Shown: positions 30,552-56,703 of the stretch, in pieces
How the letters are laid out: every line of letters starts with the position of its first letter
Position numbering within the stretch: position 1 is the first letter of the stretch
NCBI RefSeq assembly: GCF_016612505.1
Contig: NZ_JAENRR010000018.1
Location: 1 to 64,000, forward strand
DNA: 64,000 bases
From: Carboxylicivirga marina
Lineage (GTDB): Bacteria > Bacteroidota > Bacteroidia > Bacteroidales > Marinilabiliaceae
Direction of reading: 5' to 3'
Notes under the pieces: model-generated
The model's database searches: none
Seen by the model: the letters and a program-made list of their open reading frames with translations, nothing else
What the model was told of the DNA's origin: nothing
Made by a program: the position numbers and the translations under genes

Positions 30552-31460
30552 TTATCCCATTTCTCGTACCGACTGTCGAAAGGCGATAGGTGATTGTCCG
30601 CTTATTTTTTTGAAGAAAGATGCAAAATGCGAAGGCTCTTCAAACCCGAGTTCAAAAGCCAACTCTTTGCCCGACATCTCAGTAAATAGCAAAAGGCGTT
30701 TGGCCTCAATCATTAGTTTATCCTGAATGTACTCTTTGGCTGACTTTCCGGTTTTCGTTTTGACATATCGATTAAGATAATCGCTCGATACAGATAACAA
30801 CTCGGCATATTGTTGCACTTTATGTATTTGTTTATACCGACGCTCGATATGCTGTTTAAATTCACGAATTAAACGGTTGCTACTCGTGTCGTACTCGGCA
30901 TTTAGCTTAGCCAGATTACATGCACCAGAAATATTAATGATAAACAGTTTGAGTAATGCACCTAATGCTTCATACTTAAAAAAGTTATCGCCATTCTGAT
31001 AACTTTTCATTTGCTCAACTATGTATGTGAGCGTATGCAGTTGTAGCTCATTTATGGGCATGGGTGGCGAATCGCCAAAAGAATTGTAAAGGTATACCCG
31101 ATTAATTAACTCCTCTGAAATGCCATTTTGCATTAAAAAGGTTGAACTAAAATTTATGACATAACCATTGGGGCGGCTATCACTTAAAAACTGATGCACC
31201 TGACCCGGATACACAAAATGAATGGCAGCGCCTTCCAACTGGTATTCCTTAAAATCGATGATATGAACGCCACCGAGTTCTTTCTCAACTAAAATAATGG
31301 TAAAATAATCATGTCGGTGAGGATGATCCATTAATTCTGGTTTCCCTTCCAGCATATCATGTATATCGGCCGTTGACTTAATGATAAAATCAATTGCTTC
31401 ACCATTATTTTTAGCCAACTGAAAGGTTTTTATCTGATTGTGGGCATTCACCTTATCCAT
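30552..31460 (-). CDS. AraC-family transcriptional regulator
   Basis: 302-residue regulator. An N-terminal cupin-like sensing domain (HRHDYFTIILVE near 48) precedes a C-terminal double helix-turn-helix of about 100 residues (KTGKSAKEYIQDKLMIEAKRLL, then LAFELGFEEPSHFASFFKKISG). Its start overlaps the response-regulator stop by 8 bp, so it is co-translated with the two-component pair. The adjacent pirin-YceI unit is a reasonable target, by position only. Confidence 0.9.
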   Translation of the reverse strand: MDKVNAHNQIKTFQLAKNNGEAIDFIIKSTADIHDMLEGKPELMDHPHRHDYFTIILVEKELGGVHIIDFKEYQLEGAAIHFVYPGQVHQFLSDSRPNGYVINFSSTFLMQNGISEELINRVYLYNSFGDSPPMPINELQLHTLTYIVEQMKSYQNGDNFFKYEALGALLKLFIINISGACNLAKLNAEYDTSSNRLIREFKQHIERRYKQIHKVQQYAELLSVSSDYLNRYVKTKTGKSAKEYIQDKLMIEAKRLLLFTEMSGKELAFELGFEEPSHFASFFKKISGQSPIAFRQSVREMG

Positions 31461-32139
31461 TTAATACAAAACCAACTTTAGGCACATTTTCAATCGATAT
31501 GGAAGCATCTTCCTTGAGGTATTTCCTCAGTTTGGCTATAAAAACATCTAAACTACGACCATGGAAGTAATCATTCTCACCCCAAACGGCAATTAATATA
31601 TCCTCACGTTTTACAATCTCATTCATCGTCAGACAAAGAATCTTCAATACATCGCATTCCTTTTGTGTGAGACGTTTTGAAAAGCCATTTCCTTCCAGGT
31701 TCTGATTCGCCGAATCGAAATGATAAGTGCCAATTTCAAACTTGCTTATTTCCTGTTTGGGCTGTTCATTTTGTAATTGTATACGGTTAAGAATGGCCTG
31801 TATGCGGCAAAGTAGTTCATCTTCGTCAAAGGGTTTAGTAATGTAATCGTCTACACCCAAGCGGAAGCCCTTAATTTTATCCTGCTTCATGGAACGAGCT
31901 GTCAGAAAGATGATGGGTACTTTTTTATTTTCCTCGCGAATATTTTCAGCAATGGTAAAACCATCCATACCGGGCAGCATTACGTCCAGTATACAAAAGT
32001 CGTATTTGCCCTTTCTGAATGCTTCTAAGCCACGCTTACCATCTTTATACAATTTTACATCAAAACCATTGGATTCGAGAAAATCGACCAACAGAAAACC
32101 CATGCTTATATCGTCTTCAACCAATAAAATCTTAGCCAT
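31453..32139 (-). CDS. OmpR-family response regulator
   Basis: 228 residues. N-terminal receiver domain with the acidic pocket (EDD at 8-10), phospho-acceptor Asp in LDVMLPGMDG (near 53) and the switch lysine in TKPFDEDEL (near 105). A C-terminal winged helix follows (RLTQKECDVLKILC and RSLDVFIAKLRKYL). It matches the RprY-like type common in Bacteroidota. ATG overlaps the kinase stop by one base, so it is translated with its partner kinase. Confidence 0.93.
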   Translation of the reverse strand: MAKILLVEDDISMGFLLVDFLESNGFDVKLYKDGKRGLEAFRKGKYDFCILDVMLPGMDGFTIAENIREENKKVPIIFLTARSMKQDKIKGFRLGVDDYITKPFDEDELLCRIQAILNRIQLQNEQPKQEISKFEIGTYHFDSANQNLEGNGFSKRLTQKECDVLKILCLTMNEIVKREDILIAVWGENDYFHGRSLDVFIAKLRKYLKEDASISIENVPKVGFVLNG

Positions 32140-33374
32140 TATTCAAAGGGTAACAAAATAGTGAAACATGTTCCTTTACCTTCTACACTTTCAACAGATA
32201 TCTGCCCATTGTGTTCTTCAATTACTTTCTTAACAAAAGTTAATCCCAGGCCAAATCCCTTCACATCATGTACATCGCCGGTTCCAACTCTATAGTATTG
32301 ATCAAATATATATGGCAGTTCCTTTTTTGAAATTCCAATGCCCTTATCACTTACTTTGATGCATAAATTGTTTTTCTCCTCCGATGTATTGATGCTAATG
32401 TTTGCCTGCTCTTTACTGTACTTAATGGCGTTATCCAGCAGATTTGACATCACCAATGACAAGCGACTATTATAACTATTCAAATGATGCCTTTTAGCAT
32501 TATAGGATGCTTTCATCTCTCCGCCTTTTTCTTCAATACGATAGGCAAATGACCTCATCAACTGCTCAATTACCTCTTTCATATCTATTTCATTACGCTC
32601 GGCTTCGCTATTGGTATCGCAAGACAACTTTAATATATCTTCGACATGCGATTGCATACGCTCATATTCATTGATAACTACTTGTGCATAATCACCCGTC
32701 TTTTCCTGATTGCTTTTCTTTTTCAGAATCATATTGGCCGCTAGTCGGATATTGGCGAGTGGCGTTTGAAACTCATGCAACATGTTATTAACAAACTCAC
32801 GCATGTGTGTCATGAGAGCTTGCTCACGCCGAATTAAACGAAGCAGTATGGTATACGAAGCGAGTAAGAACAAAATGATAATAATAGACATGAAAAATAA
32901 ACCGCTCATTTCGGCCAGAATAAATCGATTCCTATCGGGAAATTGCAAGCGCAGTCGAATGCCTTCGCGCTCCAACAAACCATTTAGCGTTTGCTGATAA
33001 CATTTTGGTCCCCAAATTAAAGATGAGTTTTGACCAATTAAAGTGTCGGTAACAGCAAACGTATAATTAAGCGGTAGGTTATATATCTCTAGTTGCGAGT
33101 GAATGATACTATCTACTTCGGCACTTTTTCGTCGGGCATTGATACAATCATTACCGCACAGAAATTTATCCATTTCGGGGCACAGACGATTACCAATCTC
33201 ATCACGGGCATCTTTCAAAGCCATTACCACCCGGTGATTAAAATTCTTCTCTTCTAATCGGGCAGCTCTTACGATATAATTGATTTGAATAAACAACAAA
33301 AGGGCTAAACCAATGAAAGTAGCGATTGATAAGCCATAATATTTTTTGTTCTTCCCCATTTTTCTAAAGTACAT
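32139..33374 (-). CDS. Sensor histidine kinase with Cys-containing periplasmic sensor
   Basis: 411-residue RprX-like kinase. One helix near 13-33, a periplasmic region of about 110 residues, a second helix near 152-172, then a HisKA domain with HEFQTPLANIRLAA (phospho-His near 200) and a HATPase with NLLDNAIKYS and two G boxes. The periplasmic part carries several cysteines (C..C..C in LCPEMDKFLCGNDC near 58-71, and PKCYQQ near 123). They could form disulfides or bind metal, so the domain may sense redox or metal state. The start could also be the ATG at 33359. A -7 element TAATTTTG lies at 33391-33398 on the minus strand. Confidence 0.9.
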   Translation of the reverse strand: MYFRKMGKNKKYYGLSIATFIGLALLLFIQINYIVRAARLEEKNFNHRVVMALKDARDEIGNRLCPEMDKFLCGNDCINARRKSAEVDSIIHSQLEIYNLPLNYTFAVTDTLIGQNSSLIWGPKCYQQTLNGLLEREGIRLRLQFPDRNRFILAEMSGLFFMSIIIILFLLASYTILLRLIRREQALMTHMREFVNNMLHEFQTPLANIRLAANMILKKKSNQEKTGDYAQVVINEYERMQSHVEDILKLSCDTNSEAERNEIDMKEVIEQLMRSFAYRIEEKGGEMKASYNAKRHHLNSYNSRLSLVMSNLLDNAIKYSKEQANISINTSEEKNNLCIKVSDKGIGISKKELPYIFDQYYRVGTGDVHDVKGFGLGLTFVKKVIEEHNGQISVESVEGKGTCFTILLPFE

Positions 33375-33390
33375 ATTCTAATTAATGCCT

Positions 33391-33398
33391 CAAAATTA
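33391..33398 (-). promoter_or_regulatory. Likely -7 promoter element for the kinase operon
   Basis: TAATTTTG on the minus strand, matching TAnnTTTG. It leaves a short leader of about 10-25 nt and favours a start at 33374 or 33359. Confidence 0.45.
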
Positions 33399-33485
33399 CC
33401 AAAATAAAAGACCTAATTGTCTTCTTTTAACATCGTCTTAACAACGATTAACAAGTCAATAACTTACCTTTATCGATATCAAACT

Positions 33486-33493
33486 TACATTTG
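33486..33493 (+). promoter_or_regulatory. Likely -7 promoter element for the Cys/Lys-rich peptide gene
   Basis: TACATTTG matches TAnnTTTG, with an expected transcription start near 33500 and a 35-nt leader. It is back to back with the kinase promoter, so the two genes may share regulatory DNA of about 90 bp. Confidence 0.5.
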
Positions 33494-33534
33494 TATTATC
33501 ACAAACATTTAATTAATATTTAAAACACTTTATT

Positions 33535-33753
33535 ATGAAGAAGACATTAATCCTTTCGTTCCTTTTTGCTTTTACTTTGGCAATTGCTTCACCTACAATG
33601 GCAGCTACTATTGATCAGGAGCCTCAAAAAAAGGAACAAACAACGGACAAGAAGAAGAAAAAAGAATGTTGTTCGGAGAAAAAAGCCTGCTCTGAGAAGA
33701 AAGCTTGTGGCGAGAAAAAAGAATGCTCTGGAGAAAAAAAGAAAAAAGGATAA
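33535..33753 (+). CDS. Small secreted Cys/Lys-rich protein
   Basis: 72 residues. A signal peptide of about 23 residues (cleavage near MAATID) is followed by a mature part of about 49 residues made almost only of Lys, Glu, Cys, Ser, Gly and Thr. Five cysteines lie in short repeats: CCSEKKA, CSEKKA, CGEKKE, CSGEKK. The spacing looks like a metal-binding or disulfide-capable tail, not an enzyme. Codon use is A-rich because of the lysines. It is divergent from the kinase whose own periplasmic domain has clustered cysteines, and it has its own perfect terminator. Function unknown; a metal or thiol buffer in the envelope is the best guess. Confidence 0.8.
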   Translation: MKKTLILSFLFAFTLAIASPTMAATIDQEPQKKEQTTDKKKKKECCSEKKACSEKKACGEKKECSGEKKKKG

Positions 33754-33777
33754 TTGCAGTAAATTTTATTGCTATCT

Positions 33778-33811
33778 AAAAAAGCCACTTCATTCGAAGT
33801 GGCTTTTTTTT
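33778..33811 (+). terminator. Terminator of the Cys/Lys-rich peptide gene
   Basis: Perfect 14-bp stem (33778-33791 with 33796-33809), ATTC loop, T run. Very strong. Confidence 0.92.
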
Positions 33812-33854
33812 GCATCTTTCGCAACCTAACAAATATCATCACGTATGATAGTAT

Positions 33855-33960: not shown

Positions 33961-35163
33961 ATGATGGGAATGGATTCATTTATTGTCAGGTTTGTTATTA
34001 TTTTAGTAACAACTGGCTCGGTTGGTTATTTAATTTTAAGATTGTTATACAAGGGCAGTATCTTTTTCAGGATTGGTGCCTTGTGGATGATTAATGTGTT
34101 TTTAACCGTGATGAACAGTCGTATTCATTACAACCATCCAGATGCCTATCCTTTCTGGGCTGCTCTTCTGTGTGGCATAATTGTCACCGTTATTATGCAA
34201 TACATTGTTTATCTGCAAATTAAAAAACCACTGGGCAATATTACAGAAAAGCTAAAAACCATTGCATCGGGTCAAATATCTCCTGAACAAGTCAAATACA
34301 CAGCGCCTATTAAAGGTGAATTATTTGAAATTCATAAGGCCATTAACAACCTGCAAGCCAAGGTAGGCAGTGTTATGACTGAAGTGAGCACATCGGCCAA
34401 TGAAGTTAATCGCATGGGCAGCAACCTCAATGAAACAGCTAGTGAAATATCATCGATTGCTAATACGCAAGCTTCTGGATTAGAAGAGATATCATCAGCC
34501 ATGGAAGAAATGGCAGCTAACATTGAAGCCAATAGCCAAAATGCAAATGCAACCAAAGAAAATTCAAACCAAGCCAGTTTATCGGTTGATGAAAGCTTCG
34601 CTAGTACGCAGCAAGCTTTAACTTCAATGCAACAAATCAACGAAAAAATTAAAGTGATAGATGAAATTGCTATCCAAACCAATCTTTTAGCATTGAATGC
34701 AGCCGTTGAAGCCTCACGAGCAGGTGAAGAGGGACGTGGATTTGCAGTAGTTGCAGGCGAGGTGCGCAAACTCGCCGAACGTAGTAAACTCGCAGCTAAA
34801 GAAATTGACGAATTCTCGAAAAAAGGCAATGAGGTTGCAGAAACAGCAATAGAAAAATTAAAGTATACCGTTCCTCTTATTAAGAAAAATGCCGATTTAA
34901 TTGCAGAGATAGCTTCATCAAGTGAGGAACAGAACCTGGGTGCTACGCAGATAAATAATGCCCTTCAGGAAATCAACCGTTCAACACAAAATAACGCCGC
35001 CATTTCAGAAGAAATGTCATCGAGTGCCGGCCAAATGGTTGAACAGGCAGCTTCATTAATTAAAAAATTAGGTTTTTTTTCAAATCAGGGAAAGTCAATC
35101 AAAGTAAGTCTTAACCGTTCCAGTATGAAAAAATGTTGGACGCAAGGCTACATCATCAAGTAA
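33961..35163 (+). CDS. Methyl-accepting chemotaxis-type protein without a periplasmic sensor
   Basis: 400 residues with three membrane helices (about 7-30, 36-52 and 62-84) joined by very short loops, so no extracellular sensor domain. A HAMP-like linker is followed by a full MCP signalling domain; the hairpin tip is intact ([35 protein letters not shown], key residues E-G-GF). No che genes are nearby. The last 25 residues look wrong for an MCP: a run of eight T at 35073-35080 sits just before them. Seven T would give a tail [11 protein letters not shown] and a stop at 35105, closer to MCP endings such as the other receptor's YFKR. A frameshift or sequencing error is possible. Confidence 0.85.
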
Positions 35164-55847: not shown

Positions 55848-56411
55848 CTATTTCACCAATACCACTTTAAAGCTCAGCTCAAACTCATCATATATCATTT
55901 TGTCACCCAGATTATCAAAGAATTTACCTGAGCCATATCTCACATCGTATTTAGTTCGATCAACCATTAGCTTCCCTGCAAAAACGCCATTATTTTGAGT
56001 CACATCAAAGCTTACCGGATGCGTTTTACCTTTGATGGTTAATTCACCACCTATTTTATAGTCTGTTCCATTAGGAGTTACAGTTACCAACTTAAGTGTG
56101 CTTAAAGCGTGTTTTTCCACACCAAAGAAATCATCTGATTTTAAGTGCCCTACCAATTTAGCGTTGTAATCTTTATTGTCAATATCAGAACAAGTAATAC
56201 TGTTCATATCAACCACAAACTCACCACCTTTCAACTTTTTACCATCCATTTTAAGACTACCCGATTTTAACGAGATATTACCTGTGTGCTCACCTGTCAC
56301 TTTTTTTCCTAACCAGGTTATTTGACTTAATGATGTATCAACAACTTTTGATTGGGCACTAACAGCAACAACAAAAGCCAGCATAGCAATAGCGGAAGTT
56401 ATCTTTTTCAT
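55848..56411 (-). CDS. YceI-family periplasmic lipid-binding protein (copy 2)
   Basis: 187 residues, signal peptide cleaved near SAQSK. YceI barrel with ITWLGKKVTGEHTGN near 32, DIDNKDYNAKLVGHL, FFGVEKHA, GGELTIKGKTHPVSF and VDRTKYDVRYGSG. Clearly a paralogue of the copy at 29127-29699. It stands alone here, not beside a pirin gene. Confidence 0.92.
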   Translation of the reverse strand: MKKITSAIAMLAFVVAVSAQSKVVDTSLSQITWLGKKVTGEHTGNISLKSGSLKMDGKKLKGGEFVVDMNSITCSDIDNKDYNAKLVGHLKSDDFFGVEKHALSTLKLVTVTPNGTDYKIGGELTIKGKTHPVSFDVTQNNGVFAGKLMVDRTKYDVRYGSGKFFDNLGDKMIYDEFELSFKVVLVK

Positions 56412-56703
56412 AACTGTGGTTTTTAATGAATAGTAAGCAATTAAAAAGAAAACACTGCCCTTAAGTTAAAAGTTCAATTCTTCTTGTTAAAAGTTTGTTA
56501 ACAGACAATCAAAAGGGTGAGACAAATGTTCAGCAACCAAAGCTCTACGTATTCAACACCAGCTAACTATTCAGCTGATACACTACTAATTAACGCATGC
56601 CATACACTAATCAACCATAGTTTTATAACTCTATATTAATTGGCCAAAGTGAGTTTTCATTCCTATTTTTATAATTCATTAATATCCAATTAATCCTGTT
56701 TAC

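Follow-up and report, generated by a model that had tools for sequence, protein, structure and literature searches.

ZraP, a folded zinc protein, is the periplasmic metal-binding partner encoded divergently from ZraSR, whose regulator ZraR is a sigma-54 activator, and metallothioneins have dense CxC spacing. OmpR/PhoB response regulators bind tandem direct repeats of ~11 bp. To our knowledge, little is known about how the Bacteroidales sense envelope stress. As stated in an excerpt of PMC5008109, SilE is a disordered protein of 143 aa and pcoE is under CusRS, and an excerpt of PMC6737893 describes cpxP as a secreted target transcribed divergently from cpxRA. For RprY of P. gingivalis, neither the kinase nor the signals are known according to an excerpt of PMC3646045.

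Here we describe a locus in a stretch of 64,000 nucleotides from Carboxylicivirga marina (the window), in which a sensor kinase and its adjoining response regulator diverge from a gene for a short, Cys/Lys-rich secreted peptide; the segment 33375-33811 comprises the intergenic region, the peptide gene and its terminator hairpin. The locus differs from ZraP/ZraSR in having a PhoB/OmpR-type regulator and a thiol tail. Like metallothioneins the peptide is short and Cys-rich, but it is exported, Lys-rich and has CC and C-x5-C spacing, and no metallothionein model was among the Pfam/NCBIfam matches of 14 such peptides. Comparison with relatives makes it very likely that kinase, regulator, boxes and peptide form a regulatory unit. 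That this unit is a conserved Bacteroidales envelope module against thiol or soft-metal stress, with the peptide as a disposable thiol or metal buffer, is a reading to which we give slightly better than even chances.

The kinase, the peptide and the region between them

The features of the locus are as follows (coordinates in the window).

31453-32139, minus strand: OmpR/PhoB-type response regulator, 228 aa, adjoining the kinase (Response_reg and Trans_reg_C; tree)
32139-33374, minus strand: sensor histidine kinase, 411 aa, with HisKA and HATPase_c (domain search; orthologues)
33144-33182, minus strand: periplasmic cysteine cluster of the kinase, C65-x7-C73-x3-C77 (sensor alignment)
33391-33398, minus strand: -7 element of the kinase promoter, TAatTTTG (conserved in the genus alignment)
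33427-33463, plus strand: putative operator of four phased boxes, TTAACA-11-TTAACA-10-TTAACA-11-ATAAC (alignment, relatives, enrichment)
33486-33493, plus strand: -7 element of the peptide promoter, TAcaTTTG (conserved in the genus alignment)
33535-33753, plus strand: gene for the Cys/Lys-rich secreted peptide, 72 aa (ORF, homologue matches, purifying selection)
33535-33603, plus strand: signal peptide, residues 1-23, with a type I A-x-A site and no lipobox (by eye)
33667-33732, plus strand: Cys repeat stretch, residues 45-66, with five cysteines (sequence)
33778-33809, plus strand: intrinsic terminator hairpin after the peptide gene (fold)

The preliminary description had read the 72-residue product as a signal peptide followed by repeats of the CSEKKA/CGEKKE type, and the ORF is indeed coding and under purifying selection, with a dN/dS of 0.19 in 14 genus genomes across the signal region; in the tail, synonymous change has reached saturation. 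Behind the signal peptide lie a short QEP-containing stretch and a Lys/Glu tail in which the five cysteines stand mostly six residues apart, within the repeats CSEKKA/CSEKKA/CGEKKE. A peptide search matched 56 of 100 genomes at E<=1 (the source genome included, as well as all 14 of the genus), the matches close to E = 1 being doubtful. The mature part averages 33% Lys, 18% Glu, 12% Cys, 0.1% His and 1.0% Met over 47 homologues (45 of them from the host family; L099, L101, L103, L105 and L114 were left out as degenerate or doubtful), with 4-10 cysteines per mature peptide. Despite strong turnover the tail keeps its cysteines, also at the level of the order, and the near-total lack of His speaks against copper sites of the classic His/Met type. 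The peptide family, which had not been recognised from the sequence, has no counterpart in the Pfam and NCBIfam libraries either: in a scan of 14 peptides at E<=0.01 no model covered the peptide, and weak hits to unrelated families touched just one or two of the 14. A plasmid search with the peptide gave no match, and in the open literature, judged on titles and abstracts, we recognised no description of such a Cys/Lys peptide.

Alignment of the intergenic region from 14 genomes of the genus revealed two conserved -7 elements with the box array between them, the back-to-back promoters that had been proposed; both elements were named from TAnnTTTG, which we take to be the Bacteroidetes -7 consensus and for which the sigma-70 scan does not look. 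The kinase element at 33391-33398 makes the second Met, at 33359, the probable start of the kinase (406 aa), and on the other side the array ends ~22 bp before the -7 element of the peptide. The region 33754-33815 folds at -23.9 kcal/mol (z -6.8) and a T-run follows the hairpin, so that the peptide probably forms a one-gene transcript; a simple terminator scan listed none at the peptide. No Rfam element was found in the region between kinase and peptide. Further downstream, the product of 33961-35163 is small and has an MCP signalling domain, with no ligand domain listed; it belongs to cluster c3, whose members follow the peptide at 10 of the 14 genus loci. The segment 35170-35480 is a seemingly non-coding, A+T-rich stretch of ~300 bp with repeated GGGCATCA-like words (by eye).

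In the response regulator, Response_reg and Trans_reg_C both score above cut-off, giving a receiver and a winged-helix output domain. The sensor of the kinase comprises ~120 residues between two membrane helices and holds C125 besides the three-Cys cluster. The periplasmic C-x(7)-C-x(3)-C pattern already noted in the kinase proved to be nearly invariant, with C65, C73 and C77 retained in 42, 41 and 40 of 44 sensors, C125 in 36/44, and exactly four cysteines in 33/44; four sensors that lack C125 have a cysteine at 96, and in two C77 is replaced by His. This pattern would be explained if the cysteines formed a disulfide pair or bound a metal. Kinases without the peptide carry 0-6 periplasmic cysteines, so that the cluster does not track the peptide and was rejected as a strict marker for it. 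The predicted models consist of helices and a small sheet (pLDDT 78 and pTM 0.49 for the kinase, 78 and 0.74 for the sensor alone). Foldseek with the sensor model gave no match at E<=0.001, and the best VIA Z of 8.0 (7prq, rmsd 3.5, 119 aligned), like that of 7.3 against 5is1 (rmsd 3.9, 104 aligned), is at the level of common arrangements; WalK, LuxQ and Cache-type sensors likewise give a background Z of ~5-8. The lack of a clear fold match does not speak for a new fold.

The kinase scores 126.7 bits against NCBIfam TIGR01386 (cztS_silS_copS), below the cut-off of 292.55 and over the kinase core only, and the same restriction applies to its 38% identity with the C172 paralogue in its own genome. 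That genome encodes two paralogous kinases, of 541 and 528 aa, and regulators 49% and 45% identical to that of the window. The RprX-like label given earlier to the kinase was set aside, as the kinase is shorter than these paralogues and the regulators of the host family branch separately, outside the paralogue clade; in size, the 541- and 528-aa paralogues would be nearer to RprX than a kinase of 411 aa.

Conservation of the linkage and of the box array

Orthologues of the kinase, 36 in all (at least 39% identity over nearly the whole length, one truncated by a contig end), are present in 35 of 60 host-family genomes (G000-G059), and 35 of the 36 have the peptide as their divergent neighbour; in G059 it lies ~4.8 kb from the kinase with six ORFs between. 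To widen the set, a search with a kinase alignment gave 51 named loci and, at E<=1e-30, matches in 60 of the 295 genomes from the order. The 152 loci with a kinase included 112 distinct ones, of which 101 had at least 350 bp upstream and a kinase 370-470 aa long. At 69 of these 101 distinct kinases (68 under other thresholds) a divergent ORF for a secreted, Cys/Lys/His-rich product was detected, compared with 6 of 279 control genes taken from these loci, and the six control matches look by eye like out-of-frame ORFs. Inspection showed L166 among the 69 to be spurious and a real Cys-rich protein at L126 to have been missed. Outside the host family positives occur in 15 other families, or 17 with G086 (L126) and G079 (L112), and the linkage was found even where the peptide is hardly alignable. 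Linkage in relatives, on which the preliminary description had in part staked its proposal beforehand, is thus strongly conserved. At phylum level, sensor matches were obtained in 9/395 genomes at E<=1e-4, six of them only partial; G414, a class-level case from another order, combines a cysteine-bearing sensor with a divergent gene for a secreted Cys-rich protein, without a box array, and in G395 the sensor lacks the cysteine cluster and a Cys-rich secreted protein is absent.

The other neighbours fare differently. AraC, pirin and YceI, which had been counted as parts of the same envelope response, adjoin 7, 9 and 7 of 52 loci, all in the host genus, and were rejected as parts of the module. 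Ten related peptide-less kinases (L128, L201-L204, L206, L208, L210, L215, L228) have a common other divergent neighbour (cluster c2), and the kinase family may therefore have several dedicated partners. An OsmC-like protein (by eye; cluster c5) adjoins the kinase or directly follows the peptide at the order-level loci L119, L217, L221, L223 and L226.

Phased arrays aimed at the peptide recur across the order. In a census, covering both strands, of WTAAC chains spaced at 10-11 bp and lying no more than ~260 bp from the kinase start, at least three boxes were present at 59/69 loci with kinase and peptide, at 2/32 peptide-less kinases (L214 and L126, the latter with a Cys-rich protein) and at 0/279 controls, figures to be read as counts and not as probabilities since the rows are related by descent. 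Two boxes were found at 19/32 peptide-less kinases and 3/279 controls, which fits autoregulation. Without mismatch, the four-box pattern occurs at one place in its own genome, 33427-33463; at three mismatches there are two further places compared with four control places, and a large four-box regulon in this genome was therefore rejected. One of the two further places, C162 (L246:3250-6014), has the 541-aa paralogous kinase followed by its regulator, a divergent 319-aa secreted protein and, in the gap separating the two genes, phased TTAAC boxes; this arrangement matches that of the window locus with a target that is unrelated, and the site may be real.

Eight genomes of three genera (G017, G035, G044, G049, G054; G025, G040; G030) carry the peptide away from this kinase, and a search for orthologues of the kinase in these genomes found none. 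Allowing one mismatch per box, boxes are retained in all eight: four in G017, G035, G044 and G054, just two in G030, and degenerate ones in G040. Regulators were sought in seven of the eight (G049 was left out). In G017, G030, G035, G044 and G054 (L287-L291) we found a regulator 49-51% identical to that of the window with no kinase alongside, and these five orphans form one clade within the family of the window regulator (support 100/100), apart from the paralogues, in a tree with long branches where one order-level regulator, that beside a peptide in G079, sat on a very long branch and grouped with the paralogues. At four of the five orphan-regulator loci the neighbour resembles by eye the c18 protein, which flanks the kinase-regulator pair in other genera. 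For comparison, RprY is described as unlinked in Porphyromonas gingivalis in an excerpt of PMC3646045. Only paralogous regulators were found in G025 and G040; the peptide of G040 has lost its cysteines, and that of G025 is intact and has kept its boxes. Weaker peptide homologues in G029, G031 and G041 adjoin neither kinase nor exporter, and boxes, two of them, are present in G029 only.

On the whole, regulator, boxes and peptide remain together for longer than kinase and peptide do, which supports a target that functions in its own right and weighs against a sole role as ligand of this kinase. These kinase-loss lineages provide natural controls for the module. More generally, the locus represents a compact system of kinase, regulator, box array and one short target gene in many Bacteroidales families, and its low-complexity peptide can be recognised by synteny, operator and cysteine content though its sequence is hardly alignable.

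Proposed function and alternative readings

Most likely, on the sequence evidence, the peptide is the dedicated target of the regulator and not merely a ligand of the kinase, given that boxes and peptide persist where the kinase has been lost and the regulator is an orphan. The preliminary description had offered buffer, ligand and target as possible roles; of these, target is favoured by the multi-box operator that accompanies the peptide also where the kinase is missing, buffer is plausible, and ligand as the sole role is weakened by the five kinase-free genomes that retain peptide and boxes. Points against the module are G025, with an intact peptide and boxes where only paralogous regulators were found, the distant peptide of G059, the weaker homologues of G029, G031 and G041, the missing array of G414 and the sensor cysteines of kinases without the peptide.

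The membrane kinase, with its small periplasmic domain of about four cysteines, would sense thiol-active stress, the signal being either an oxidant acting on periplasmic thiols or a soft metal, for example Cu(I)/Ag(I)/Zn. Once activated, it would phosphorylate the PhoB-type regulator, which would bind the four phased TTAACA-like boxes and switch on the one-gene peptide transcript. The Lys/Glu-rich product may be disordered after export, its numerous free thiols taking up metal or oxidant, so that a burst of cheap thiol chain would both protect the envelope and, by feedback, end the signal. The chemical half of this proposal, which draws on peptide composition, sensor cysteines and two-box genes, has in our judgement only a little more in its favour than against it, metal and redox being about equal. 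The module makes a secreted thiol buffer in these bacteria directly testable.

A wider regulon is suggested by a shorter form of the operator, which occurs in the window before the second YceI gene.

56485-56501, minus strand: two-box site TTAACAN5TTAACA, marking a candidate further target
55848-56411, minus strand: secreted YceI-type protein (by eye), candidate target, 91 bp downstream of the two-box site

The two-box pattern occurs 134 times in the 14 genus genomes, and its reversed control 40 times. Of 82 two-box sites analysed with their surroundings, 7 lie inside ORFs, and 19 related flanking-gene groups recur in at least two genomes, nine of them in at least five; of 30 of the 40 control sites, 19 fall within an ORF, and recurrence is seen for two groups, in two genomes each, the control sites being fewer and more thinly spread, which alone lowers recurrence. 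The groups include kinases (PhoR among them), YceI, PiT transporters, a TonB-receptor-like protein and a MORN-repeat protein (8 genomes each), a further membrane protein (6), glycoside-hydrolase-like, ThiF-like and HYC_CC_PP proteins (5 each), DsbD or DsbD-N (4), secreted thioredoxin (4), TlpA-like protein (3), RND adaptor (3) and others; identities were checked for HYC_CC_PP, DsbD, thioredoxin, RND adaptor, MORN and TlpA-like, and the other names were given by eye. Sites at the thioredoxin genes, and most of those at HYC_CC_PP genes, face away from the gene. Two WTAAC boxes are present in orthologous promoters at 9/13 TlpA-like and 10/14 DsbD-N loci; the TlpA-like sites are weakened as clean evidence by the box in the source genome, which overlaps the 3' end of the upstream gene. 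Since PhoR and PiT genes share the motif, the two-box genes may belong, in part or entirely, to a different TTAACA-binding regulator, and that some groups have a thiol or metal flavour is no more than suggestive.

Tentatively, these elements might be combined into a periplasmic thiol couple in which the sensor cysteines and a sacrificial peptide swap metal or disulfides and the kinase reads the redox or metal load of the peptide, with a regulon of peptide, secreted thioredoxins, DsbD, YceI, HYC_CC_PP and RND adaptor as a dedicated thiol/soft-metal envelope response of the Bacteroidales. We regard this extended version as speculative.

Among the alternatives, the one that survives best takes the peptide to be mainly a signalling partner that binds the periplasmic domain of the kinase and damps or gates it, as CpxP acts on CpxA, perhaps exchanging thiols with the cysteines of the sensor. 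A divergent pair with a shared operator, as in cpxP-cpxRA (an excerpt of PMC6737893), conserved cysteines in both proteins and the presence of the peptide with 35/36 family kinase orthologues all agree with such a role; we nevertheless consider it improbable, as peptide and boxes persist in five genomes without the kinase, 32/101 kinases lack a detected peptide (one of these, L126, has a Cys-rich protein), and the length of the tail and the number (3-14) and order of its cysteines vary, unlike in a docking partner.

The peptide might instead serve a MacAB-TolC-type exporter, as its substrate or its helper, and be released from the periplasm to act as metallophore, signal or antimicrobial, with its production under the control of the kinase. 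At seven of the eight kinase-free loci (G017, G025, G030, G035, G040, G049 and G054, not G044) the peptide is divergent from a tolC-hlyD-ATPase-ftsX operon (genes by eye), and G047 and G056 carry an ATPase-ftsX-ftsX-hlyD operon downstream, beside the kinase (by eye), but no such exporter adjoins the peptide at the other loci of 52 and an exporter in the same regulon would account equally for the neighbourhood, which leaves this a still less probable explanation. By locus, the tolC-hlyD-ATPase-ftsX operon is divergent from the peptide at L072, L084, L085, L090, L095, L098 and L101 (not L080), and on the other flank these same seven exporter loci have a LytTR-like regulator, mostly with its kinase (by eye).

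A mature part with 33% Lys and 18% Glu could also belong to a general envelope-stress target without thiol chemistry, a charged chain acting as a chaperone-like or ionic filler with incidental cysteines; the survival of cysteine through strong tail turnover, also at order level, makes this very doubtful. That the peptide is a low-complexity ORF with no function, as its repeat-like and compositionally biased tail might suggest, is hardly credible in view of the dN/dS of 0.19, the conserved promoter and boxes, the terminator and the linkage across families.

Comparison with described systems

The thiol or metal buffer under two-component control that we favour shares features with several described systems. 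RprXY is likewise a Bacteroidetes kinase-regulator pair, from which the window kinase differs in having 411 aa and a short cysteine sensor; the paralogues in its own genome have 541 and 528 aa. With CpxP/CpxRA the locus shares a peptide gene divergent from a kinase-regulator pair, control by the regulator being suggested here by the boxes. CpxP is a Spy-like chaperone, whereas 14 peptides searched against Pfam and NCBIfam at E<=0.01 had no match to the Spy/CpxP family, and the window peptide is kept in kinase-free lineages. With SilE/PcoE, as portrayed in an excerpt of PMC5008109, it has in common a small secreted protein with repeated soft-metal ligands (putative here), a promoter of its own and an adjoining two-component system. 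In place of the His/Met repeats of SilE/PcoE the window peptide has cysteines as putative ligands and almost no His (0.1% His and 1.0% Met in the mature part of the 47 homologues), its gene is divergent from the kinase with no copper/silver efflux cluster alongside, and no homology to SilE/PcoE was detected. By analogy, the peptide would work like SilE/PcoE and is arranged like cpxP-cpxRA, and is best filed as a member of neither.
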